Below, piece by piece: positions 3,515-24,203 of a stretch of 24,659 nucleotides of DNA (its first letter is position 1; every line of letters begins with the position of its first letter). The notes under the pieces were generated by a model. The model saw only the letters and a program-made list of their open reading frames with translations. It had not been told where the DNA came from and did no database searches. A program made the translations under genes and the position numbers. Location of the stretch: positions 1 through 24,659 of the IMG/VR virus record IMGVR_UViG_3300042260_001007; one strand, 5' to 3'. Source of the DNA: a virus.

Positions 3515-4008
3515 AATTTCAATCAATCATTAGTGAAGTAGGGCAATCAATCCCCGGGCTGGCTGCCACTTATCTAAAAAATCCCCTGTACTTTCGAGAA
3601 ATCTGTGATCAGAATCAACTCAATCCGATCGCAGATAGTCCTTTACCGATGAATATTCCTTTGAAAATTCCTGCCTTAGAAGCGATCGCGCCCTTGGCTG
3701 CATCCAAGCTAGATAAAGCCACGGAAACCATCAATGCCATCAAAGGCAAGGTGAATCAGGTTGGGCGGTTAAGCGGGCAAATTTCCGGGGATATCTCCGA
3801 TGTTCTCACTTCTGTGGATAAGGTATTGCCCACCCAATACCGAGGCTATACCAAAGCGGCATTGGACGCGATCGCGGATGTAAACGGGGCTATAGGTGAA
3901 GTCGAAAGCACACTAACTTCTACCCTTGAAAAAATTGATAAGTCCCTTAGCAAGGTTAGAAGTTATGGCGGCGATCGAGTGGCATTGGTCGATTGGTTGT
4001 TAAGTTAG
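3511..4008 (+). CDS. LysM-like tail baseplate protein with helical C-terminus
   Basis: The 165-residue protein has near its N-terminus YLKNPLYFREICDQNQLNPI and then IPLKIPALE. This is the LysM-like layout N-P-x-x-(W/Y)-R-x-I...N-x-(L/I)...L-x-I-P seen in small tail proteins (Mu gpX / T4 gp53-like) that link tube, hub and wedge. From about residue 65 on it is helical and low in complexity (T, S, K, D, I), probably a coiled coil. The start overlaps the preceding stop (ATGA at 3511). Together with the gene before it, it looks like a split version of an adaptor-LysM protein. Confidence 0.6.
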   Translation: MKFQSIISEVGQSIPGLAATYLKNPLYFREICDQNQLNPIADSPLPMNIPLKIPALEAIAPLAASKLDKATETINAIKGKVNQVGRLSGQISGDISDVLTSVDKVLPTQYRGYTKAALDAIADVNGAIGEVESTLTSTLEKIDKSLSKVRSYGGDRVALVDWLLS

Positions 4009-4016
4009 GAGTAAAT

Positions 4017-5225
4017 ATGAATTATTACGCTTTAGGATATGCGATCGGAACTACATTATCCGAACTTAAAACATTTACTCCATTGGATTTTGGGGTAAAA
4101 CCTCGTAAGCGATGCCGAACAGGATATAATTGTGGTGGATCTTGCATTAGCACCAAGAAAAAATGCCGAGTGGCTTTGAGTGGAGAAGCTAAAAATTTTG
4201 CCCAATATGTTCGGCAAAATAAAAATAAATTATCAGCGATCCAGAAAAAGAAAGCCAAAGAGCAAAACATCGGATTAACACAGTCTCGACTCAAAAGAGA
4301 AAAGCCCAAAAAAACAACAACATCACAGCACCCACCAAATAGCGCCGCGTTTTTTACTGAAAAAGGCCAAAAAGCTTTGAAGATACTTGATTCTGCATCT
4401 ATAGAAAAGCTGGCGGCCAGCGCAAAAGAAGTAAGGAGTTTAATGGACAACTTTGATCTTTTACGAAAGCAAAGTGACAAACTAAAAAGTTACGAAAATG
4501 AAAAGGCCAGTAAAATTATCTCTCAACGGTATCAAAACTGGAACCGGATTAATGATCTAATTACAGAAAACGAGCCAATTCTTAAAAAAGTTTACGATCA
4601 ACTTTTACAAAAAAGTCGAATTTCTGACGACCAAATTAAACAAGAAATTGGCCGATTAAGCATTAGCCAAAAAGCGCTTAACGCACATCCAGAACTAAAA
4701 TCCGATCTAGAAAGTTACATAAAAATGACCGGCAAAATGCCTAATAATTTATCAACCATTGATTTTATTAAAGACAGAGCTTATGCCGATATGTCCAATC
4801 AACTTCTAAATATTGGCGAGCCTCGGTCATCCTCTACAGAAAGAAGAATAGTTATTTTTCACGAACTAAGTCACTTTGAAGAATTCAACAACTCAAACAT
4901 AGGAAAAGCTGCGGCTGAATGGAGAAAACAAAAAGCCTCTGATTTTGCCAAAAACGGGCAACCTGAAATTAAAGAGTTAAAAACTTTAATCCCTGGATAC
5001 AATTCAGACGAAGACGATTCAGACGAAAAAGCTTTTCAAGACAAATATATAGATCCTTATGTTGGCAGAATTTACCCTCCATATTTAGGGCGTCCAGTCA
5101 GTGAAGTAGTTAGCGTAGGAATTCAGCATTTTGTTTCGCCAAGAAAAATGGCTGAATTGTATCTAATGGATCCATCACATTTTGAATTGTCTTTAGGAAT
5201 TGTAAAGAGTTTACAAGGAGACTAA
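4017..5225 (+). CDS. Putative zincin metallopeptidase (HExxH), toxin- or effector-like
   Basis: The 402-residue product starts best at ATG 4017, 5 nt after AGGAG; an upstream GTG at 3993 lies inside the previous gene. Three parts are visible. First, a cysteine cluster C33-x5-C39-x3-C43-x6-C50 in a basic context (CRTGYNCGGSC). Second, a long lysine-rich helical region (about 60-260). Third, a C-terminal putative zinc-protease domain with H282-E-L-S-H286 and a downstream PVSEVVSVG segment (E363), a plausible third ligand as in gluzincins. The end (LYLMDPSHFEL) is typical of protease domains found at the C-termini of phage or polymorphic-toxin proteins. The gene is richer in A+T and lysine than its neighbours and sits inside the tail operon, followed directly by a small gene. 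It could be a delivered effector, a virion protease or a cargo gene. Activity is inferred. Confidence 0.6.
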   Translation: MNYYALGYAIGTTLSELKTFTPLDFGVKPRKRCRTGYNCGGSCISTKKKCRVALSGEAKNFAQYVRQNKNKLSAIQKKKAKEQNIGLTQSRLKREKPKKTTTSQHPPNSAAFFTEKGQKALKILDSASIEKLAASAKEVRSLMDNFDLLRKQSDKLKSYENEKASKIISQRYQNWNRINDLITENEPILKKVYDQLLQKSRISDDQIKQEIGRLSISQKALNAHPELKSDLESYIKMTGKMPNNLSTIDFIKDRAYADMSNQLLNIGEPRSSSTERRIVIFHELSHFEEFNNSNIGKAAAEWRKQKASDFAKNGQPEIKELKTLIPGYNSDEDDSDEKAFQDKYIDPYVGRIYPPYLGRPVSEVVSVGIQHFVSPRKMAELYLMDPSHFELSLGIVKSLQGD

Positions 5226-10091: not shown

Positions 10092-12707
10092 ATGAGACTG
10101 ATTGCCCCGATCGCCCGCGTTCGGATTGCGGACAATGAATTCATATCTGGCGATGGCTACCTAAAATTTGTTTCCGTTGAATTAGGTGAAGATGCGCGAT
10201 CGTCCTCTTGTCGATTTGAAATTAATGACCCAGAGTTAGATTTTGCCGGGAAATACTTTGAAATCAGCTTTAAGGAAAGTGGCATTCAGGTGCCCGCTGA
10301 TTTATTGGCTGCCAAACCACAACAGCCACCTCCTACGGTTGCGGGGACTGGATTAATCAATATTCCGGGCGGCGGCGGGGAAAGCACTTTTTCTGTTGAT
10401 GGGGTAGGTTCATGGCTGATTTCAAAAACTCCGCATATTCCCGAAAACCAAAAAGCAGAATTCTGGGCCGGTATTCAGTCTCTATCTAGCGAATTAGGTA
10501 TTGATCCCAACTACCTCCCAATTATCATGGTTACGGAAACCGGAGTGGATGGATTCATCAATCCTGCGGAGGGGCATGGAAATGATGCCGAAGGATGCGG
10601 TGGATTAATTCAATTTTGTACCTGGGGTGGAGCGACAGAAGTTGGATACCCGCCCAGTGTGATAAGAGGTTTAAGTGCAGCAGACCAATTGCCTTTAGTT
10701 AGGAAATATTTAAGCACAAAACAAATTCCTTCAGGTGCAGATTTAGCTACTACCTATCTGGCTATTTTAAATCCAGCGTCAATGCCGATTCCGCGAGGCC
10801 AAGACCTTGGCATTAAGGGTCGACAATCCGCCCACTTGTACGACAGTGCGGGCAGAATCACCAAAGAATCACTAGAATCCGGATTGCTTGAAAAGGCAAA
10901 AGTACACGAATTTAACCCTAGTGGACCATCACTTAAATCGGCCCCAACACCGCCACCGATCGCAGATACCACCAAAGCACAAACCACTCCACCTGCTGAC
11001 GGCTCTCCGCCGCCTGCCAAAGCAGAACCGGCAAAGCCCTCGGAAGAATCAAAGAAAGGCACGGAAATAATAATTGAGTTAGGCTATGAAATCGATCGCT
11101 TAATTTCATTTCACTTTATCCACACTGGCACTACCGCCAATGGGCGATCGCCTGGGTCTACGGTTTTTGAGGGTCAGTCAATCCGCTGGATGATGTCCCG
11201 ACGGACAAAAAATTCAACTTACGAAAATATCACCTTACGGCAATTGGCGGAAATTATCTGCCAAGGGTATGGTCTATCACTGGAAATGGAAGGCGATGGC
11301 CCGACATACCAATTCCTCGACCAAAGCGGTATTTCTGATTACCAGCTTTTGCTTCGGGAAGCTAAGGCGATCGGTTACTCGATAGCCGATGACGGGGCAA
11401 TTCTGAAAATTTCCCCTTGGCGGCCAAACTTTACTGGATTCGTAATTACCCCGGATATTCTGGATAAAATCAGTTTCAGCGATCGCGCCACGGCTGAAAT
11501 GCAGAAAAAAATCACCCCAGAGAGCAAAACATCGACTACCGATACCACGGCAGGGGAACAAAAAACCGAGATTGATTTGGCCACAGGAAAAATCAAACAG
11601 ATTAAACCGGAAGACTCGACCGGCACCGGCACAGGGACAATGGCGATGACTGGCGCTGCAACAACTGAAGTAAAGGGAATGGCCGATCAAAGTGAAGCCA
11701 AAGCCACTAGCGATATGATGTCGCCGGTAGTCCCAGGCTCCGATGATAAGTTTTCTAACCAACTTAACCCGGTCACAGAGCAAGTAAAGCCACTAAAACC
11801 AGAAGACCCCAAAGCCGCAACTATTTCAAGTTTTGCCTCAACCTCAACTCCCTTTAAAGAGGAAAAAACCGGACTGCCTACCCAAGAAATTGGTGCAATT
11901 GACTTGGCAGATGGCAAGGCAAAGGCGATCGCAATTAAAGATGAATCTCGCAGAATCAAGGGGTATGAGTCGAATGCCAGCTTTAAAGCCACACCTGAGT
12001 CTCTCACTTTAGCGCCGGGGTCAATAATTGGAATTGCCGAAAGGTGCTTTAAAAGTAAAGCTGCCAAAAAAGCATTTTGCCGAGAGTGGCGAGTTGGCCG
12101 GGTCAAACATACCCTACAACCGGGAAATTTTCGCACAGATATCGATTTTTATACCCCACAGGCAGCCAAACCACCCGCCACAGCGCCAACAGTCGCAGGT
12201 ACGGGACTAAAAAACACCCCAGACCAACCAAGCACGGCCACACCCGGCCAATTTACTCCCAATGCTGGCGGCTACATTTGGCCAATGCGAGGATACTATA
12301 CCAGTCCCTACGGGCCACGATGGGGTAGATTTCATGGTGGAATCGATATTGCCGATGCAGAAGGAACGCCAGTAATGGCGGTGGCAGATGGAAAAGTTAT
12401 TTTTGTCGGGCAACAAGACCCAGGGGATCTTTCCGTCGGATTTGGCAATTTAATCGATATTGAGCATTCCGACAAAAACGTTACCAGATACGCTCATTTG
12501 TTAGAGTTCAAGGTGACAGAAGGCCAAATGGTAAAACAAGGAGATGTTATCGCATTGGAAGGCAACACTGGTGGCAGCACTGGCCCACACCTTCATTTTG
12601 AAATTTGTATTGGCGGACCTTACGGAGACAAAATAAATCCGATTACTGTACTGCCACAGGGAAACCTTGCAGTAATTGACGGATTAGTTCCGCCGGGAAG
12701 TACCTAA
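10092..12707 (+). CDS. Baseplate hub (gpD-like) with inserted lysozyme-like domain and C-terminal M23 peptidase
   Basis: The 871-residue product is the spike/hub end of the tail and appears to carry two peptidoglycan-cutting domains. Residues 1-75 and about 325-475 resemble the hub fold (late control gene D: YQFLDQSGISDYQLLLREAKAIGY). Between them, residues about 105-270 look like a transglycosylase/lysozyme domain: candidate Glu149 in VTETG, then GCGGLIQF. Proline-rich linkers follow. The C-terminal part (about 735-860) is an M23 endopeptidase with H748-x3-D752 and H833-L-H835, the zinc ligands of that family. The linker PTVAGTGL occurs at residues 81-88 and again at 699-706, just ahead of each lytic domain. 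It starts 1 nt after the fibre gene stop. A terminator follows at 12820. Enzymatic activity is inferred from motifs. Confidence 0.85.
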   Translation: MRLIAPIARVRIADNEFISGDGYLKFVSVELGEDARSSSCRFEINDPELDFAGKYFEISFKESGIQVPADLLAAKPQQPPPTVAGTGLINIPGGGGESTFSVDGVGSWLISKTPHIPENQKAEFWAGIQSLSSELGIDPNYLPIIMVTETGVDGFINPAEGHGNDAEGCGGLIQFCTWGGATEVGYPPSVIRGLSAADQLPLVRKYLSTKQIPSGADLATTYLAILNPASMPIPRGQDLGIKGRQSAHLYDSAGRITKESLESGLLEKAKVHEFNPSGPSLKSAPTPPPIADTTKAQTTPPADGSPPPAKAEPAKPSEESKKGTEIIIELGYEIDRLISFHFIHTGTTANGRSPGSTVFEGQSIRWMMSRRTKNSTYENITLRQLAEIICQGYGLSLEMEGDGPTYQFLDQSGISDYQLLLREAKAIGYSIADDGAILKISPWRPNFTGFVITPDILDKISFSDRATAEMQKKITPESKTSTTDTTAGEQKTEIDLATGKIKQIKPEDSTGTGTGTMAMTGAATTEVKGMADQSEAKATSDMMSPVVPGSDDKFSNQLNPVTEQVKPLKPEDPKAATISSFASTSTPFKEEKTGLPTQEIGAIDLADGKAKAIAIKDESRRIKGYESNASFKATPESLTLAPGSIIGIAERCFKSKAAKKAFCREWRVGRVKHTLQPGNFRTDIDFYTPQAAKPPATAPTVAGTGLKNTPDQPSTATPGQFTPNAGGYIWPMRGYYTSPYGPRWGRFHGGIDIADAEGTPVMAVADGKVIFVGQQDPGDLSVGFGNLIDIEHSDKNVTRYAHLLEFKVTEGQMVKQGDVIALEGNTGGSTGPHLHFEICIGGPYGDKINPITVLPQGNLAVIDGLVPPGST

Positions 12708-14005: not shown

Positions 14006-14662
14006 ATGAGCAATTTAACAGTCTTCAACTACAACGGTCAAGTCATCAGCCGACGGGAAAATGGTTTTGTCAACTTGACCCAAATGTGTCAGGCGAATGG
14101 GAAGCGACTGGAGGATTTTCTTTCTCACAAACGAACATTAGACACAATCCATACTCTTTACGCTATTCAGTCTGGGGAAATCTGCCATGTATTAGAAACA
14201 ATTGACGGTGAAACCTGGGGGCATTTTCATCTAGCGGCTGAATTGGCGTATCAGTCCAACGCATCATTCTCTGTTTGGTTTAATATAACTTTTTACGGAG
14301 ATAACCTTATCTTTCCCAGTGTTTCACTAGAAGAGTTTCGCCAATGGGAAGAAAAACACTTCCCTTGGATAAATGATGCTACCAACAAAAACGAGCAAAA
14401 GGGGAGTGTCTATTTTATTCTAAATGAGACTCGAAACATATTAAAGATAGGGTACACTGCTGGCGACCCAATGACAAGGCTTGCGGCCTTCAAATCAGGC
14501 GCAGTCCAAGAAAAGCTAACACTACTTGGACAAGTCGATGGGACGTTAAAGACAGAGGCGATGTACCACTCTTATCTTGCCAGTTACAAGGTGCAAGGCG
14601 AATGGTTCAATTACACATCAGATGTCCGCAAGTTTGTCGAAGAAACCATCCTAGGCGGGTAA
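14006..14662 (+). CDS. KilA-N domain protein fused to a T5orf172-like (GIY-YIG) domain
   Basis: The 218-residue product has an N-terminal KilA-N DNA-binding domain (about residues 3-105: NGQVISRRENGFVNLTQMCQ, then WGHFHLAAELAYQSNASFSVW), found in phage and large-virus regulators. The C-terminal part (about 131-215) matches T5orf172 / Mug113-type GIY-YIG domains: GSVYFILNETRNILKIGYTAG at the start (V-Y-F-I...K-I-G-Y-T), an E in TEAMYHSYL and GEWFNY near the end. Such fusions are thought to bind or nick DNA, so it may regulate the prophage or cut DNA site-specifically. It is transcribed with the 54-aa gene and the Bro-N gene and has the shared hairpin leader. Confidence 0.8.
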   Translation: MSNLTVFNYNGQVISRRENGFVNLTQMCQANGKRLEDFLSHKRTLDTIHTLYAIQSGEICHVLETIDGETWGHFHLAAELAYQSNASFSVWFNITFYGDNLIFPSVSLEEFRQWEEKHFPWINDATNKNEQKGSVYFILNETRNILKIGYTAGDPMTRLAAFKSGAVQEKLTLLGQVDGTLKTEAMYHSYLASYKVQGEWFNYTSDVRKFVEETILGG

Positions 14663-14788: not shown

Positions 14789-15496
14789 ATGAGTATTGTA
14801 CAAGTTTTTGGCAACTCTGAAATTCGTTTTGTTGACCACCCTGAAGGTAAGTTTGAATTTGGGATTGTGGCTGCTGATATGGCTGCGACGCTGGATGTTC
14901 AAAACACCCATCAGCTACCTGTTGACGATGAATGGAAGGGTGTATGTAGTATCACGACCCCTGGTGGAATCCAGTCTATGACTGTAATCTGGGAACCGGG
15001 CATCTACCAGCTACTCGCAAAATCTCGGAAGCCCCAGGCTAAACCGTTCCAGAAGTGGTTGTTTGAGGAGGTTCTACCAAGTATTCGCAAAACCGGGCAA
15101 TACGTGATCGCGCAGCCCACGCAGCCCCGGCTACCCCAACGAGATGCGATCGCATATATTGAAGCCGCAAAAGAAGTCGAGACAATCAACAACCTAAGCC
15201 TTCAACAATTACTTCGTGACGAATTGATTGATGAATTATCGGCAAAGCGAGGGCAAAAACAACTAGCAGGCGATCCTGTTCAATATACGATTGTTAAGGT
15301 GCGGGCACGAGAATTAGGGTACTCCACAGCAGATATCGGCAATGGTTCCGCGCTAGGAAAATTTGTTGCCAAGGCAATTGCCCCCGCATTTATTGAGCGA
15401 GTCGGAAAATATGAAGTCAAGCATTATCAAGTCAACGATGCTCTCGACACAGCGATCAAAACTTATTTTGGAATGAAGCACTCGTTGGCCAGTTAA
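14789..15496 (+). CDS. Bro-N family (antirepressor-like) protein
   Basis: The 235-residue protein has an N-terminal Bro-N domain (about residues 1-110: VQVFGNSEIRFVDHPEGKFEFGIVAADMAATL, then WEPGIYQLLAKSRKPQAKPFQKWLFEEVLPSIRKTGQY). This is the hallmark of phage antirepressors and baculovirus-repeated-ORF-type DNA-binding proteins. The C-terminal half (about 140-235) is a separate helical and beta domain (YTIVKVRARELGYSTADIGNGSALGKFVAKAI) that may set the partner or target, as KilAC or ANT domains do in relatives. It is the last gene before a strong terminator. In a prophage it would be expected to counter the repressor or alter host transcription. Confidence 0.85.
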   Translation: MSIVQVFGNSEIRFVDHPEGKFEFGIVAADMAATLDVQNTHQLPVDDEWKGVCSITTPGGIQSMTVIWEPGIYQLLAKSRKPQAKPFQKWLFEEVLPSIRKTGQYVIAQPTQPRLPQRDAIAYIEAAKEVETINNLSLQQLLRDELIDELSAKRGQKQLAGDPVQYTIVKVRARELGYSTADIGNGSALGKFVAKAIAPAFIERVGKYEVKHYQVNDALDTAIKTYFGMKHSLAS

Positions 15497-15680: not shown

Positions 15681-16460
15681 GCGATCGCGGTTGAAGACTT
15701 AAATCTTGGCGGCATGACTAAAGCCTCGAAAACCAAGGTTGAGGTTAACGCTGAAACCGGCAAGCTGGAATACGCTAAAGTCAAACGGAAGCAAAAATCA
15801 GGATTAAATAAAGCCCTTTTGCGGAATACGCCGGGGCAACGCCATTCTTTGATCGAATCCAAGGCAAAGATGGCGGATAGAGAATTTTGTAAAATTAAAG
15901 CGGCTTATTCGAGTCAGGAATGCCATCGTTGCGGGCATATTTCTGCCAATAATCGCCCGTCTCAGGCTATTTTTAAATGTGAAAAATGTGGCCACGAAGA
16001 TCACGCGGACAAGAACGCTGCAAAAGTGATCCGCGATCGCGGCATAAAAGTCTTCAAAAGAAGCTACCCCGCTTACACGGGGAAAGTTACGCCTGTGGAG
16101 ATATCCGCCTCAACCCCGACTTTATTGTCGGGGGGTGGAGCCCAGGAACCCAGTAATGGGATTCAGGAGAGTGATTCTCCTAAGATCGCCCCTACTCTCA
16201 CCAATTCCGCGACACTTCGGCGATCGCGGAAGCGAACCTCGAAAAAAACCGCCGAAACCCTTACAGATAAAGCGGTTTGTGGCAATCAAAAACCAGAATC
16301 GATCCGCGCAAATCCCGAACCCCTTGCCCCACCTGATTTTGGAGACAAAAAGCTAAAGGCCACTCTCCCCTTGGCTCCATCCCAAAACCAAAAACGCAAG
16401 CGATTCGCGCAAAACCCAGATCCGAATCAACTCACGCTTGATTTGTGGGGGTCGGGGTGA
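15681..16460 (+). pseudogene. tnpB: 5'-truncated tnpB (IS200/IS605 type) remnant
   Basis: The frame keeps the C-terminal half of a TnpB RNA-guided nuclease. It has the RuvC-II segment AIAVEDLNLGGM, the zinc-ribbon pairs C-x2-C (CHRCGH) and C-x2-C (CEKCGH), then HADKNAAKVIRDRG with the last RuvC Asp. Everything before RuvC-II is missing: upstream the frame is open only back to a TAA at 15588, and the sequence there is not TnpB-like. No start with a Shine-Dalgarno exists before RuvC-II, and the TnpB-like part ends near 16110. A further 115 codons, rich in K, P and S, continue to a stop at 16458-16460, which is supplied by a 37-bp repeat. Probably inactive. A tnpA is not in the window. Confidence 0.75.
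16067..16181 (+). ncRNA. Stem-loop cluster at the tnpB 3' end (reRNA/omegaRNA-like)
   Basis: Four hairpins lie in a row: CCCC/GGGG (16067-16082), CCCCGAC/GTCGGGG (16114-16133), CCCA/TGGG (16149-16160) with flanking GAA/TTC, and AGGAGA/TCTCCT (16165-16181). Structured ends of this kind overlap the 3' part of tnpB genes and form the guide-RNA scaffold. They also cut into the extended frame, which explains its low-complexity tail. RNA function is inferred. Confidence 0.4.
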
Positions 16461-16493
16461 AAATCGACTGGTGAGAGTAAAGGCGATCGTAAG
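16457..16493 (-). repeat. Solitary inverted copy of the 37-bp repeat
   Basis: This is a perfect 37-bp copy, in reverse orientation, of the four repeats at 17878-18130. It begins GTGAAAATCGACTGG and ends CGATCGTAAG on the plus strand. Its second to fourth bases (TGA) form the stop codon of the tnpB remnant frame. With the first array copy (17878-17914) it brackets the two genes between as perfect inverted ends. Confidence 0.95.
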
Positions 16494-17877: not shown

Positions 17878-18130
17878 CTTACGATCGCCTTTACTCTCAC
17901 CAGTCGATTTTCACACCCGCACTTTACTCGGTTAGATCCCCAGGCAAAGTACGCTTACGATCGCCTTTACTCTCACCAGTCGATTTTCACCGGCTGCATT
18001 GCTCACTCTAGAGGTTCATCTTACGATCGCCTTTACTCTCACCAGTCGATTTTCACTTTGTCGGCAAAAAACTCGATTGCGCGATCGCCTAGCCTTACGA
18101 TCGCCTTTACTCTCACCAGTCGATTTTCAC
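17878..18130. CRISPR. CRISPR-like array: four identical 37-bp repeats, spacers 39, 29 and 37 nt
   Basis: Identical 37-bp copies lie at 17878-17914, 17954-17990, 18020-18056 and 18094-18130, beginning CTTACGATCGCC and ending CGATTTTCAC. The three intervals share no visible sequence. Size and spacing fit a short CRISPR array, and 37 bp is common for cyanobacterial repeats. Against this, there are no cas genes, the repeat lacks the usual GAAAC/GAAAG end and any good stem, one spacer is short, and a fifth copy stands alone in inverse orientation at 16457. A dispersed repeat family or transposon end is therefore equally likely. The last copy supplies the stop of the minus-strand gene at 18127. Confidence 0.5.
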
Positions 18131-18487: not shown

Positions 18488-19294
18488 CTACCGTTTGATT
18501 CCGAACCCCCGACCCGCGTTTTTATGTTTGTCAAATTCTTTTAGAGATTCAACCCAATCTGTTGTGGTGATTGTGGCAGCCATACAATGAATAATTTCCC
18601 CACTGGTTAGAGCAAAAGAATCAGAAATATTATTTATTTCTCTGACTTGAAATGCATCAACCATTGACAAAGCTACCAGAAGTTGGAAGGAAGTTTTAGC
18701 ACTTTCTGATGTCAACCAGTAAATAACTTCTTTGATAATTTTCTGATTGGCCATAGACTTAATTGCAGTAATTTGGCTATCTAAATTTGCCTTAATTCGG
18801 CTTTTTTCCTGATTAGAAATGTTGTAAGCATTCATGCTTTCTATGAAGTTTTCTTTACTCGCTGCTAGAGCAAGTTTTTGGCAAAGTTCGACTATTATTT
18901 CTGAATTCCATCTGGCGTGGCAGATACTAGCGATCGCACTAAGTTTCGGAATCCGATTGAGTTCTCTTTTGCTGAGAATATGCTTGTTAATAGTCAAAAT
19001 TTCCCAGAAATTATTGTTGAAGAGTTGCAATCGCTGACTACGACTTTCTCTGGAAAACATTCCCACTGCTTTCTGATAATCATACTGTTTGGCTCTGGCT
19101 TCGCATTCTAAGCCAGTATTTTTGTGATGCTTGAAGCAGGGGCTAATGTAAATTTCATTACGAAGAAATCCCTGTGTCCAGAATAAATTATTGTGGCATA
19201 AGGGGCAGATAAAACCTTGGGATAAATAATCAGGATAGTTGGCTTCATCTGCTGAAATAATGCTGGTGGTGTAAAGGCTAATTGCTTCTTTCAT
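18488..19294 (-). CDS. CoiA-like zinc-finger protein of unknown role
   Basis: The 268-residue protein has near its N-terminus F-I-C30-P-L-C33 followed by SPCFKHHKNTGLECEARAKQ, the arrangement of the competence protein CoiA-like zinc-binding region (C-P-x-C...F-x-H...C...E/A-x-x-H). CoiA proteins carry a nuclease-like fold after this, but the residues from about 70 on here are mainly helical and no clear nuclease motif is seen. It lies between the ArdA-like gene and the FtsK-like gene and is transcribed with them from the minus strand. It may be a DNA-handling accessory protein; the call is from the N-terminal pattern only. Confidence 0.45.
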   Translation of the reverse strand: MKEAISLYTTSIISADEANYPDYLSQGFICPLCHNNLFWTQGFLRNEIYISPCFKHHKNTGLECEARAKQYDYQKAVGMFSRESRSQRLQLFNNNFWEILTINKHILSKRELNRIPKLSAIASICHARWNSEIIVELCQKLALAASKENFIESMNAYNISNQEKSRIKANLDSQITAIKSMANQKIIKEVIYWLTSESAKTSFQLLVALSMVDAFQVREINNISDSFALTSGEIIHCMAATITTTDWVESLKEFDKHKNAGRGFGIKR

Positions 19295-19382: not shown

Positions 19383-21620
19383 TCACCCGCTTCGTATTAT
19401 TAATCTTTTGAAATATTCAAGATTATTTCGGGCGTCCCAAGTTCCAGGATAAATCCAGTTATTGTAGTTATGAGCGCAATCGATTGTCCGATAATTTTCC
19501 GGTTTGTGGACTGCATGAGCCAACGGAAAAATGGCAATGCCAATAACGTCTTTTTCGTTGTCCGCTACCTTTCCCCACCAGCTTCGGTAATAGGCATGGT
19601 GGGCTACTTCGGCTTTACCCCCTGTGATTGGGCATTGCTTTTGTCGGACTTCTCTAGATGTATCTGCCCAACTTCCTGAATATCGAGAATCAAAGTCATC
19701 TGGGTATTCAGGATTAGCGACATAATATGGCCATCCGAAAAATTTCTTTTCGGCTATTTTTCTTAGTTCATCCATCGCGATCGCTTTTTCCTCTCCTGAC
19801 CGGGCATCCCACGCAGCCCAAACAATATCATCAGCATTAGCCCCAATTTTCAATAACCACTCGACAAAATCTTCTCGGTGCATACTTAGGCAGTTTTCAT
19901 ATTGAGATATTTCGGAACTGGGATTTGTTTTGTCAAAATGGGAACCCCCATCACTTACGTTCCAAATTAACTGAATAATTTTGGTTTTGGATGGTTTGTC
20001 AGGGTGTAGTTTCAGTGCTTTAATACGTCGCCATAAGTGATCGCACTTGTTCGGTTTTTTGGGCTTTGAAGTAACGGGAATATCGAGGGACTGAAATGAC
20101 TTTTCCAGAGTTTCCAGATAGCTTGATATTGCCGGATTTAAGTGTTCAACCGCGTTGTTTTCAGTTTTCGTCGGTTGACAGTCGGGACAGTGAAAATTAA
20201 GAGCGATCGCGTGTAATTTTTCTAACTCGGTGTTGTCGTCGTCTGGCACAAATAACGATTGCCCCCTGGTTAACGTCCCGTCGGGTGATTTCCACAAAAA
20301 GTCTCCTTTCCCCAATAAAATTGAGGCACTGGGATTGGTTGGTTCCCCTAGGGCGATTTCGGATTCTTTGCAATTCATTACTTTAAAGCTGAGACGATAA
20401 GGCAGATTGCCTTTCAATAATGTCCCGACAACCGGGAATTTGCCCTGCTTATCTTCCACTACTGGCTTCTGTGTCCCCACCGCCAGAAAAATGCCGACAT
20501 TTCGCATTTTTTGGGCAACGCGGGCAAGCTTCACTTGAGCGTCAGCGGGTTTACAGTCGGGATTTCCCGTTAGCCCCGCCATCCACTCGGCCAACTCATC
20601 CACCAAAAATAGAATCACTGGAAGCTTAGATGCGGATTTTTTATTAAATCCCTCGATGTCTCTCACTTCTAGAGACTTAAATAATTCCTGCCTGCGAATG
20701 CCTTCATCAATAATTTGCCCTAAGAAGCGATCGCCCAAAACGGCATCTTCACAAATGTTTCCCCACAACCACGGGGAATTTTTCAGCCAAGAATATGAGC
20801 CGCCCTTGCAGTCCACGATCGCAAATCTGATTTGTTCTGGGGTGTATCGGTAGATAGCCGAAAGCAGCATAGCATTTGCTCCTACGGACTTACCGCTGCC
20901 ACTGGTCCCCGCAAACAGGAATGAAGCGCTCTCACCTTTGGGTGACAGCTTGTGGCTGATTAGTTCGCGGCTTAGGGAATTGATACCCAGAATTAAGCTA
21001 GGGCTATCTGATCTCTTTTCGGGTGGTAAGTTAAAGGTCGGAAACTCGCGGTTTCTTCTGGGAATTTCCACCACAAGATTGCCGCGATCGACATAAGTCG
21101 AAACCGCTAGAGCAGAGGGTAGGCCAATGGCGGCATGAATTAAGTCGCTTTTTTTGGAAGCTTCCGTAGCTTGCTTGGAAGACTTGGGCTGGAATTCCAG
21201 ACGAATTAACGATGCCCCCTCATGGCACTTGGCAAAATTCAATTCGATGGGTTTTGTTTCGGTTAAAAGTGCCTCAATAATTTTAAGGGCATATTCCCCG
21301 GATTCACCCGGTGGCAGGCTAGAGCGATTAACACTTGGAAGTACCGCCACTTCCTGCGATGCACCAGCGATCGCACTGGCTTCGACATCAGCATACCGTT
21401 CAATCGCCGCTTGCTTTTTAATTCTCAAGAACGGTTCCATCTCATCTGATTCGATTTCAGACTTTACCCCCAATACGGCTGGGGGGACGGCTCCCAACAA
21501 CAGCACTATTCTGAGTGTTTTTTCGCCCGACAAACTGGCACCTAGCGCACCCAGAAGAAATAACCATGTGCATCCGGCTAAGGCGATTGCAGTGCCTCTC
21601 TTTTTATTGGCAAACTCCAT
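19383..21620 (-). CDS. Membrane-anchored FtsK/SpoIIIE-type DNA translocase with HNH-like C-terminus
   Basis: The 745-residue product has two N-terminal membrane segments (about 11-30 and 37-52), a linker domain, and a RecA-like FtsK/HerA motor with Walker A GTSGSGKS (238-245) and Walker B ILFLVDE (336-342). Such ATPases pump double-stranded DNA, as in chromosome segregation or TraB-type plasmid transfer. The C-terminal about 250 residues are not an FtsK gamma domain. They have charged helices and then CPITGGKAEVAHH (C663 to H675) and PLAHAVHK, which resembles an HNH-type fold with some cysteines lost. Start choice is supported by GGAGGTGT, which overlaps the end of the preceding small membrane gene. 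The role is probably DNA transfer, partition or packaging; the HNH call is tentative. Confidence 0.75.
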   Translation of the reverse strand: MEFANKKRGTAIALAGCTWLFLLGALGASLSGEKTLRIVLLLGAVPPAVLGVKSEIESDEMEPFLRIKKQAAIERYADVEASAIAGASQEVAVLPSVNRSSLPPGESGEYALKIIEALLTETKPIELNFAKCHEGASLIRLEFQPKSSKQATEASKKSDLIHAAIGLPSALAVSTYVDRGNLVVEIPRRNREFPTFNLPPEKRSDSPSLILGINSLSRELISHKLSPKGESASFLFAGTSGSGKSVGANAMLLSAIYRYTPEQIRFAIVDCKGGSYSWLKNSPWLWGNICEDAVLGDRFLGQIIDEGIRRQELFKSLEVRDIEGFNKKSASKLPVILFLVDELAEWMAGLTGNPDCKPADAQVKLARVAQKMRNVGIFLAVGTQKPVVEDKQGKFPVVGTLLKGNLPYRLSFKVMNCKESEIALGEPTNPSASILLGKGDFLWKSPDGTLTRGQSLFVPDDDNTELEKLHAIALNFHCPDCQPTKTENNAVEHLNPAISSYLETLEKSFQSLDIPVTSKPKKPNKCDHLWRRIKALKLHPDKPSKTKIIQLIWNVSDGGSHFDKTNPSSEISQYENCLSMHREDFVEWLLKIGANADDIVWAAWDARSGEEKAIAMDELRKIAEKKFFGWPYYVANPEYPDDFDSRYSGSWADTSREVRQKQCPITGGKAEVAHHAYYRSWWGKVADNEKDVIGIAIFPLAHAVHKPENYRTIDCAHNYNNWIYPGTWDARNNLEYFKRLIIRSG

Positions 21621-21623
21621 TTT

Positions 21624-21890
21624 TTATACACCTCCGATCAACAGAGTGAGAAGTAATCCACCCATAAGTAAAATTACAAAACTTTGGCTTTGTGACTGCC
21701 GACGTGATTCGTGAATTGCGATCGCGATAAGCACTAATTCAATCGCAATTATCCCAATAGCCATCCAAAACAGAATCAGGTCTAAAGATGGGATTGACAT
21801 TGCCAAGAATGCCGCGATCGGGTGCCGTGGAACGATAGAAAAAAATAAGCTTTGTGCTACGATGGGTAAGGTAATGAGATTCAATTTCAT
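21624..21890 (-). CDS. Small membrane protein with two to three transmembrane segments
   Basis: The 88-residue protein is hydrophobic: a first segment near LITLPIVAQSLFFSIV, a long one LILFWMAIGIIAIELVLIAIAI and a C-terminal SFVILLMGGLLLTLLIGGV, with the charged stretch HESRRQSQSQS between the last two. It is 3 nt upstream of the FtsK-like gene, and its last codons form that gene's Shine-Dalgarno, so the two are coupled. It may help place the translocase in the membrane. Shine-Dalgarno AGAAGGA precedes its own start. Confidence 0.6.
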   Translation of the reverse strand: MKLNLITLPIVAQSLFFSIVPRHPIAAFLAMSIPSLDLILFWMAIGIIAIELVLIAIAIHESRRQSQSQSFVILLMGGLLLTLLIGGV

Positions 21891-21957: not shown

Positions 21958-22311
21958 TTAACCTTTGGCGGCGGCAAGTAATTTTGCCTTGATGTCTGTT
22001 AGTTGTTGTCGATCTCTCACTGATTCCCCGTATGCCAAATAAGCAACTTTTCTTGCTTGATTTTCGTGCCGATTAATTTTTCGTAATCCCTGTACATACT
22101 GGGTGGCAAGCTGTTCTCGCTTCTCTGCCTCTTGTGCCATCTGAATAACTGGTTTCACTTCTGCCTCTAGGCTGGTAATATCTTGCTTAAAAAATCTGTC
22201 TATGGTGCGATCGCACCATCCAATGTCACTAAACGCTTGAGCTTGACGACCGGCTCGAAACAGGAAATTATCGCCAATTACCCACCTAAAATCCAAAATT
22301 TTTTCAAACAT
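21958..22311 (-). CDS. Helical protein of unknown function
   Basis: The 117-residue product is charged and mainly helical, with a likely coiled-coil part from SLEAEVKPVIQMAQEAEKREQLA to the end. It starts MFEKILDFRWVIGDNFLFRAG; TAAGGG lies upstream of the start on the minus strand. No family recognised. Located between a small membrane-coil protein and the symmetric terminator, it probably belongs to the same transfer- or partition-like set. Confidence 0.55.
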   Translation of the reverse strand: MFEKILDFRWVIGDNFLFRAGRQAQAFSDIGWCDRTIDRFFKQDITSLEAEVKPVIQMAQEAEKREQLATQYVQGLRKINRHENQARKVAYLAYGESVRDRQQLTDIKAKLLAAAKG

Positions 22312-22321
22312 TTTATTACCC

Positions 22322-22513
22322 TTAATCGGTTAGATTGGCTTCTTTGTATCCTTGAATGTAAATTTCAAGATTCTCTATTCTTTCCGATAAAAACTGGTTT
22401 TCCATCTTTAGTCGGGAAGATTCTTCAGTGGCGCTTAAGACCGAAAAAAATGCTGGGACAATTCCAACCGCCATTCCCATACAAAACACAAAATAAATAG
22501 CTGTTTTTTCCAT
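22322..22513 (-). CDS. Small single-pass membrane coiled-coil protein
   Basis: The 63-residue protein has one N-terminal membrane segment (about 4-26, AIYFVFCMGMAVGIVPAFFSVL) and then a coiled coil (RLKMENQFLSERIENLEIYI). AGAGGA lies upstream of the start codon. It resembles the one-helix coiled-coil subunits that appear in small phage or plasmid membrane complexes, but no homologue can be named. Confidence 0.55.
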   Translation of the reverse strand: MEKTAIYFVFCMGMAVGIVPAFFSVLSATEESSRLKMENQFLSERIENLEIYIQGYKEANLTD

Positions 22514-22564: not shown

Positions 22565-23473
22565 TTAGGGTCTATTTGATGCCGCGATCGCTGCCCGGAT
22601 TGCTAAAGCATTGGCCTTATCGGACGCTACCGGGGCTAAGGCTATTTGAGAAATTCTTGTTGCCAGTGTTCGGACTTCTGTTAAGCGATCGGCGATCGAC
22701 TTTCCGGCATTTACTACGTTTCTTTCTCTGATTTGCTCAGTGCGGGACTGTAGCTTTTGAGCGGCGGCCACCAACGTTGCTCTGAACAACCTGCTTTGGT
22801 CATATTGCTGAACAATCGCGTCAGCCTGATTTAGTACAAATTGCTGGGTTATCGCTTCGTGATAGCCTAAGTTTTCGGCTGCCACTTCACCGAGGTAATC
22901 TCCCAATCCGCCAATGGCAAACGTTTCATCTTCGGCGGTTTGCTGACTCAGTTGGGCTGAAATTTCAGGATTAAGTTTTTCGAGTTCTTTGGCGCAAGCA
23001 TTTATATATTGCTCTGCTGTTTGAGTGCCAGTTCCGCCGAGTTCGGGTAAAACCGCTTTGCGGGTTTCGGCTATCAAGAACTCCCAGTTGTCGTCAATCG
23101 CCCCACTGAATCCAATATTCCACGCGGTTGCTGTGAGATTGATTAGGCGCATCGCTTCGCTAGGGCGAATTTTTAGCTGGCTTGCCAGTTGCTCCACCGA
23201 TTTGAATTGATGTGAAGTCGGCAATGGTGCAGCGGATTTTGTGCTTGGTTGCGGGGCGAATCCTTTTCCGGTAGTCGGGGCTGGGGTTTGTCCGCCAAAG
23301 CGCGATCGCAGATAAGCAGATTGCTCTTGAGATAGCAACGGCAAGCCTTCGGCACTTGCCACGCTTGATGGACACATTCCCGCACTTTTAAGAGCATCAA
23401 TTAGTTGGGGAATTGGGGTGCAAAGTTCTTTTGCTAGGGCGCTTAGGGCAATTCCTGTGGTTAAGTTACTCAT
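22565..23473 (-). CDS. Protein with IF2-N-like helical domains
   Basis: The 302-residue protein is taken from ATG 23473 because AAAGGAGG lies upstream; a longer frame to 23572 overlaps the gene before it. The first about 60 residues (IALSALAKELCTPIPQLIDALKSAGM...LLSQEQSAYLRSRF) resemble the small winged-helix-like domain at the N-terminus of translation initiation factor IF-2. A second region (about 90-150, SVEQLASQLKIRPSEAMRLI) may be another. A proline/threonine-rich linker separates them. The rest is helical and lacks a motif. Such domains occur in DNA-binding proteins of mobile elements. A role in plasmid partition or regulation is possible, not shown. Confidence 0.6.
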   Translation of the reverse strand: MSNLTTGIALSALAKELCTPIPQLIDALKSAGMCPSSVASAEGLPLLSQEQSAYLRSRFGGQTPAPTTGKGFAPQPSTKSAAPLPTSHQFKSVEQLASQLKIRPSEAMRLINLTATAWNIGFSGAIDDNWEFLIAETRKAVLPELGGTGTQTAEQYINACAKELEKLNPEISAQLSQQTAEDETFAIGGLGDYLGEVAAENLGYHEAITQQFVLNQADAIVQQYDQSRLFRATLVAAAQKLQSRTEQIRERNVVNAGKSIADRLTEVRTLATRISQIALAPVASDKANALAIRAAIAASNRP

Positions 23474-23489
23474 GGTGTGGTGCCTCCTT

Positions 23490-23828
23490 TTAATTAATTC
23501 GGCGAATTTCGCCATACTGGACGCCAAACTTTTCTGCAATCTGTTTGGCTTTTTTTTCGGGAAACCCTTCAAACTGGGAATCCTTTATTAGTCTTTGGGT
23601 AGTTTTGGTCCGCTTGGTGTGGGCAATTAAGCAGAGGATTGCTAATTCCCGGCTAAAGATTTCACCCTCGCGGGGAACACAGATCCCGCTTCCGCAGCAC
23701 CGCCTCGCAATTTGGCGGTATTCGATATAGGTCTGATCTTTGATTGGGGTATCAAACCCTCTCACTTTTCCGAGAATTTCCTTGGCCTGCTCCCTGGTAT
23801 AGGGAAGGTCGTAAAAAATTGTTGTCAT
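23490..23828 (-). CDS. Small basic protein of unknown function, operon-leading
   Basis: The 112-residue protein from ATG 23828 (MTTIFYDLPYTREQAKEIL) is basic in its C-terminal half (KRTKTTQRLIKDSQFEGFPEKKAKQIAEKFG), which might be a helix-turn-helix-like or DNA-binding element, with a C-C pair in RRCCGSGIC. An in-frame ATG 27 nt further upstream is possible but less likely. It is the first gene of the minus operon, downstream of the repeat-rich region. Its stop is 16 nt before the next start, whose Shine-Dalgarno overlaps its end. Confidence 0.55.
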   Translation of the reverse strand: MTTIFYDLPYTREQAKEILGKVRGFDTPIKDQTYIEYRQIARRCCGSGICVPREGEIFSRELAILCLIAHTKRTKTTQRLIKDSQFEGFPEKKAKQIAEKFGVQYGEIRRIN

Positions 23829-24203
23829 AACGGATAAACAATGTGATAATTGCAACTTATTAACTTACTTGAGTTTTTGGGTTGCTTTGTGTCAAAGGGT
23901 TGAGCGGCTAAGGCGACCATCAAAGTAAGCGTTGTTTGCTCGTTGGTAGCGCGTTGTTTGCTCGTTGTTCTTAATTTATTCCGGTTTCCCCTGTGTTGGG
24001 TGAAATGGCGGAAAATTTTCCTTAAATTGGGCTGAAATTTTTAAAAATAGCCGTCAAATGGCGCAAATACGTTAAAGCCGTGAAGAAAATTTTCTTCACG
24101 GCTTGTTTAAAAAAATAATTTAAGTGGTAAAATAAAATTTAAAGCCTCTGGAGTAGCGATCAAACTTTTCCAGAGGCGACCATTCTGTATCAGGTCAGAT
24201 ATT
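23829..24203. other. Divergent repeat-rich region (possible origin or transfer site)
   Basis: No gene is seen in these 375 nt between divergent genes. A 17-bp direct repeat (GCGTTGTTTGCTCGTTG) occurs at 23929-23945 and 23951-23967, spaced 22 nt start to start. A perfect 30-bp palindrome without a loop covers 24075-24104 (arms AAGCCGTGAAGAAAA / TTTTCTTCACGGCTT), followed by an A+T-rich stretch. A hairpin GCCTCTGGA/TCCAGAGGC (24144-24152, 24169-24177) lies just ahead of the plus-strand gene. Iteron-like repeats, palindrome and A+T-rich DNA fit an origin, oriT or promoter-operator region. Confidence 0.5.

Follow-up and report, generated by a model that had tools for sequence, protein, structure and literature searches.

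The window – the whole 24,659-nucleotide stretch that was analysed, a 24.7-kb virus record from IMG/VR – encodes a 745-amino-acid protein that, as far as architecture and module membership go, is very probably a membrane-anchored FtsK-type dsDNA pump fused to an HNH domain and a member of a recurring gene module. The fusion draws attention to an apparently undescribed module found in cyanobacterial phages and mobile elements, which would consist of a membrane protein of ~90 aa, a membrane P-loop ATPase and an HNH protein. The use that we tentatively favor is the handling of foreign DNA at the membrane, that is, exclusion; the reading as a whole, with this use included, has a probability of roughly 0.45.

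A motor with N-terminal hydrophobic segments and no gamma domain

The gene is open for 745 codons from an ATG preceded by a Shine-Dalgarno-like stretch (GGAGGTG). Its features are:

19383–21620, minus strand: FtsK-HNH fusion protein, 745 aa (open frame from ATG)
21465–21596, minus strand: two hydrophobic segments, residues ~9–27 and 34–52 (hydropathy windows at residues 9 and 34)
20211–21293, minus strand: FtsK/SpoIIIE-type motor, residues ~110–470 (Pfam core 232–386)
19881–20048, minus strand: wHTH-like motif at the C-terminal end of the FtsK portion, residues ~525–580, TKIIQLIWNVSDGGS (BLAST alignment)
19395–19697, minus strand: HNH domain, residues 642–742 (profile matches, AF2, Foldseek)
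19596–19601, minus strand: H674–H675, invariant HH pair of the HNH family (alignment)
19506–19508, minus strand: H705, invariant His of the HNH helix (alignment)
19470–19472, minus strand: H717, last conserved His, shifted by a 7-residue insertion (alignment)

FtsK-like proteins are frequent in phages, where they are filed as 'moron' genes. An earlier, sequence-only reading had taken this gene for an FtsK-type DNA pump, and the motor was confirmed: FtsK_SpoIIIE (PF01580) matches residues 232–386 with 81.3 bits against a curated cut-off of 24 (E = 9.3e-23; Pfam), the FtsK-like family phrog_1358 matches the motor in a PHROG search (E = 2.3e-43), and Walker A (GTSGSGKS, residues 238–245) and Walker-B-like (VILFLVDE, residues 335–342) motifs are in place. 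The two hydrophobic segments, called from hydropathy windows, probably form a membrane hairpin. The protein thus shares with FtsK/SpoIIIE translocases the motor domain, the Walker motifs and N-terminal hydrophobic segments, and differs from them in being phage-borne, in lacking gamma and in carrying a wHTH-like motif and an HNH domain. FtsK proper has a KOPS-reading gamma domain and four N-terminal membrane segments, whereas the window protein has two hydrophobic windows and – as the earlier reading had supposed – no gamma domain (no Pfam match at E≤1 in the 745-aa ORF). The wHTH-like motif recurs in other FtsK-like proteins of cyanobacteria: it aligns with the C-terminal end of the RM-2018a FtsK (BLAST) and resembles the C-terminus of an unfused FtsK described below (L155); the model of its fold is of low confidence. 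A helical linker of ~60 aa separates this motif from the HNH domain.

A divergent HNH domain that keeps its histidines

The C-terminus found no match by tblastn (phages and plasmids) and nothing significant among Pfam, PHROGs or PDB sequences. The clue came from a 110-aa protein of Leptolyngbya phage Lbo402-yong5 (hereafter yong5), annotated as NinG. It aligns with the end of the window protein (34% over 70 aa), and through it a family of short HNH proteins from cyanobacterial phages was reached. A profile HMM whose source is standalone cyanobacterial-phage HNH ORFs (59 hits) matches residues 664–740 with 23.6 bits (E = 6.2e-6; hmmsearch); since the maximum for 20,000 shuffled C-termini was 12.7 bits, the similarity exceeds chance. 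When a six-member HNH alignment was compared with the whole ORF by hhalign, residues 642–742 were matched with a probability of 95% (E = 3.5e-8), and the same alignment gave no signal in seven other window proteins. The homology runs on through an RYS..W motif. Two long ORFs with weak HNH matches (L076 and L082) were set aside: their architecture differs.

A structure prediction (AF2) of residues 500–745 was poor outside the HNH region (pLDDT 61), and the HNH domain was therefore modelled on its own. The focused AlphaFold model, a predicted beta-beta-alpha fold, reached pLDDT 79 and pTM 0.71, and its ten best Foldseek matches in the PDB, each weak (best E = 0.07), were all HNH nucleases; they include Cas5-HNH, the type I-E HNH Cascade, IscB, EcoKMcrA, TagI and the Cas9 HNH domain.

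The sequence-only reading had proposed an HNH-like end that had lost some cysteines, and had named three of the motifs found here: CPITGG (663), VAHHAYY (672) and GIAIFPLAHAVHK (694), with CAHNYNNW following at 715. That proposal held up: the domain is homologous to HNH proteins of the four-cysteine type, of whose structural zinc cysteines one is kept (C663) and three are lost, while H674, H675, H705 and H717 are invariant in 22 aligned sequences, the window included. The suggested check on the catalytic His/Asn residues showed the four histidines to be retained and the middle Asn to be lost, its column being Ala in the window; in relatives with all cysteines this column is itself N, H, D or S. 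With the standalone cyanophage HNH proteins (for example the yong5 'NinG protein' and A1L_73 of Anabaena phage A-1(L)) the domain has in common RY...W, the HH, H and H positions, and GxxxFP. Those proteins, however, are separate, of 100–150 aa, with four zinc cysteines, whereas the window domain is fused, three cysteines short and longer by a 7-residue insertion. It is also highly divergent, with a tree branch of 3.3.

A recurring ATPase–HNH module

Relatives of the HNH domain are often encoded by a separate gene immediately 3' of a membrane P-loop ATPase gene, in many cases overlapping it. The minus strand of yong5 has a parallel gene run with a membrane ATPase (annotated 'DNA translocase coupling protein'), followed 1.2 kb downstream by the HNH gene. 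On a phage contig (L012) the two genes overlap by four bases (ATGA), and the HNH gene likewise overlaps or closely abuts a membrane ATPase gene in L035, L065 (a Synechococcales genome), L092, L093, L095, L100, L144, L145, L147, L148, L149, L151, L152 and L155. When the HNH proteins were clustered at 60% identity, nine of the 26 clusters were adjacent to an ATPase, five were fused to one, three lay near one (within 1.8 kb) and nine were unlinked, compared to 21 of the 1313 remaining genes from those loci (1.6%) directly behind such an ATPase; the loci were picked for carrying HNH, and these counts are not population frequencies. Genomes carry several copies of HNH genes from the cyanophage family, spread over different contigs.

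In most related loci the ATPase gene is preceded by a gene of ~90 aa with two to four hydrophobic segments. The neighbors of the FtsK-HNH gene in the window are:

21624–21890, minus strand: 88-aa membrane protein gene, stop 3 nt before the FtsK-HNH ATG (ORF list, gene order)
21958–22311, minus strand: 117-aa ORF in the same gene run, lacking detectable homology to other modules (ORF list)
22322–22513, minus strand: 63-aa ORF, hydrophobic N-terminus followed by a likely coiled coil (ORF list, sequence)
22565–23572, minus strand: 335-aa ORF, weak IF2_N-like N-terminus (E = 0.008, under the cut-off; Pfam)
23490–23855, minus strand: 121-aa ORF that starts the gene run (ORF list)
18488–19294, minus strand: 268-aa ORF, 3' of the FtsK-HNH gene (ORF list)

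The 88-aa gene occupies the position of the ~90-aa gene elsewhere. Homology between the small genes of the window and their counterparts in yong5, L012, L018, L035 and L065 is not detectable although they are similarly ordered, and for this reason only gene order is claimed. The small membrane partners suggested by the sequence-only reading are therefore upheld as to gene order and not as to homology, and the lack of homology among the other small genes weighs against membership of the recurring module.

Four observations are peripheral. The window motor is only weakly similar to the yong5-type ATPases (24.6%, E = 8e-4), and homology between them is not claimed. The 268-aa ORF carries CP.C...F.HH....CEAR, which recalls CoiA N-termini, but PF06054 gives no match and the assignment was dropped. 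A branch of this HNH family on chromosome-sized or other host contigs (L094, L096–L097) has an extra hydrophobic C-terminal segment and no ATPase neighbor. Upstream of the module in L012, positions 3811–4200 hold a low-complexity ORF of Gly/Ser/Tyr/Asp repeats that is open in several frames.

Unfused and independently fused forms

The earlier call for homologues of the fusion had a mixed outcome. No close relative was found among viral contigs, plasmids, phage records or two cyanobacterial genome samples (386 and 391, partly overlapping), and pattern scans of viral and genome contigs with the whole protein or its C-terminus returned none. The same two parts, in the same order, were nevertheless recovered in two other settings. 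In L155 (G546) a 679-aa FtsK of the same motor family (phrog_1358, E = 1.6e-47; 26% identity to the window motor) is preceded by a 122-aa membrane protein with four segments, and its end is overlapped by a 105-aa HNH gene; by sequence, this unfused pair is the counterpart of the window gene. In G507, a cyanobacterial genome, five divergent ORFs of 653–738 aa (L139–L143) join the same HNH family to a different membrane ATPase, and are followed on the 3' side by a DnaG-like primase (L139) or SF2 helicases (L141, L142). Since the G507 fusions carry another type of ATPase than the window fusion, the joining of ATPase and HNH probably arose at least twice. That a conserved HNH partner has been joined to a motor on more than one occasion argues well, on genetic grounds, for pump and HNH acting together, and the recurrent fusion yields a testable biochemical prediction.

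These forms also bear on whether the window gene is an accidental fusion or an assembly artefact. The missing close relative would fit such an origin, but the frame is continuous, HNH homology extends through the RYS..W motif behind the ~60-aa linker, and G507 supplies five further in-frame fusions: we regard an artefact as very improbable.

The G507 paralogues raise a different doubt. The HH pair is kept in L139 and L140, replaced by HR in L141 and L142 and by YQ in L143, so the HNH domain can persist without its full active site. Together with the long branch of the window domain, this makes it a serious alternative that the domain has degenerated into a DNA-binding tail that does not cut and stands in for the FtsK gamma domain, the protein being simply a DNA pump; this would be compatible with each of the roles considered below. 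The loss of three zinc cysteines and of the Asn position points the same way, and all of these features count against a pump-nuclease. On the other hand, H674, H675, H705 and H717 are all kept in the window protein, and the Asn position also varies in relatives that retain every cysteine. On balance we think a non-cutting domain rather unlikely.

Phage context and possible roles

On the plus strand, genes for portal, Mu-F-like, neck, baseplate and tail-hub proteins identify the window as a tailed phage of the contractile type, and the tail-hub protein has its nearest relatives in phages of Leptolyngbya and other cyanobacteria. The FtsK-HNH gene sits in a run on the minus strand, from 23855 down to 18488. 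The L012 contig has portal, Mu-F and neck genes in common with the window, and in both the module lies near the Mu-F/portal genes. The yong5 module is flanked by the terminase and portal genes and shares its strand with the capsid genes.

Such positions would suit a helper in morphogenesis or genome entry that aids packaging or draws the phage genome in, comparable to the HNH partners of terminases. But in the window and L012 the head genes are on the other strand, yong5 already encodes a terminase of its own, and what follows the module elsewhere is a primase, a helicase or some other gene: a role of this kind appears distinctly improbable.

A second role to be weighed is that the pump carries the element's own dsDNA across a membrane, from cell to cell (along a filament, for example), with the HNH domain making the initiating cut or trimming. 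Streptomyces TraB moves dsDNA through the membrane, and the window protein resembles it in its FtsK motor, in a candidate C-terminal DNA reader (the wHTH-like stretch) and in small membrane partners, with its two hydrophobic segments adding to the case; TraB differs in having no nuclease domain. The 8-bp clt repeats of TraB systems also have no equivalent: between 17870 and 24210 only scattered, common GCGATCGC palindromes were found, besides the 37-nt repeat array described below. In Thermus, TdtA together with the nuclease NurA provides a precedent for a pump and a nuclease in DNA donation (transjugation) by an integrative element, ICE (PMC5365140). There too a membrane-associated ATPase of the FtsK/HerA superfamily works with a nuclease on a mobile element, but the nuclease is NurA-like and encoded by a separate gene upstream (PMC5365140); the module proteins scanned gave no NurA match (Pfam). 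The multiple copies of HNH-family genes per genome would also suit transfer. Against it, a tailed phage already has its own route between cells, and an unsystematic look through the window turned up neither a relaxase nor a conjugation gene. We consider transfer unlikely, if less so than packaging or entry, and rank it second.

The sequence-only reading had suggested a transfer or defence machine, which may be right on either count. The role we favor is exclusion, with a phage-borne device against competing phages or plasmids as perhaps the most likely use. FtsK/HerA motors form a hexameric ring that pumps dsDNA. We infer that the N-terminal hairpin and the 88-aa partner would anchor such a hexamer at the cytoplasmic membrane, its HNH domains facing the cytoplasm; the wHTH-like stretch would pick the DNA, the ring would pump it, and the tethered HNH domain would nick or cut the DNA as it passes. 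Capture systems of the HerA/FtsK type, in which a nuclease is paired with the motor, offer a precedent (PMC10853773): in DndH and SspH the nuclease is joined to the motor as in the window, although DndH has another nuclease fold and the partner genes of the capture systems differ from those found here (PMC10853773). A PADLOC search for Ssp/Dnd partners matched only the motor (SspH) and none of four other window proteins in a record that may be a fragment; that no defence match goes beyond this generic motor weighs against exclusion. Nor does the module look like a stand-alone defence island, given its place between terminase and portal genes in yong5.

The pairing of pump and nuclease is thus already known, while the cyanobacterial ATPase–HNH module is apparently undescribed: no account of an HNH and membrane-ATPase module in cyanobacterial phages or genomes, or of the FtsK fusion, was found in the open-licence literature. 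Tentatively, it may be an unrecognised, fast-diversifying machine of small membrane protein, pump ATPase and HNH, with pump and HNH fused at least twice, that excludes competing DNA at the membrane or moves the element's own DNA across it.

Other features of the window

The 871-aa tail-hub protein (10092–12707) ends in an M23-type peptidase. At 14006–14662 a KilA-N protein with a T5orf172/MUG113 GIY-YIG-like end adjoins an Ant/BRO-type antirepressor (14789–15496). Pattern scans of viral contigs with the portal and the 335-aa protein as queries returned no relatives.

Near the module, at 17878–18130, lie four identical copies of a 37-nt repeat, CTTACGATCGCCTTTACTCTCACCAGTCGATTTTCAC, separated by spacers of 39, 29 and 37 nt, where zero copies are expected by chance. 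The array is CRISPR-like; no cas gene was recognised with it, and the repeat is absent from the other viral contigs searched. Alternatively, it may serve the neighboring FtsK-HNH module as a cis-acting site. A comparable array of 37-nt repeats occurs in phage N-1 (PMC4916379). A fifth perfect copy, inverted, lies at 16457–16493, at the end of a truncated remnant of an OrfB-like transposase (15714–16460).
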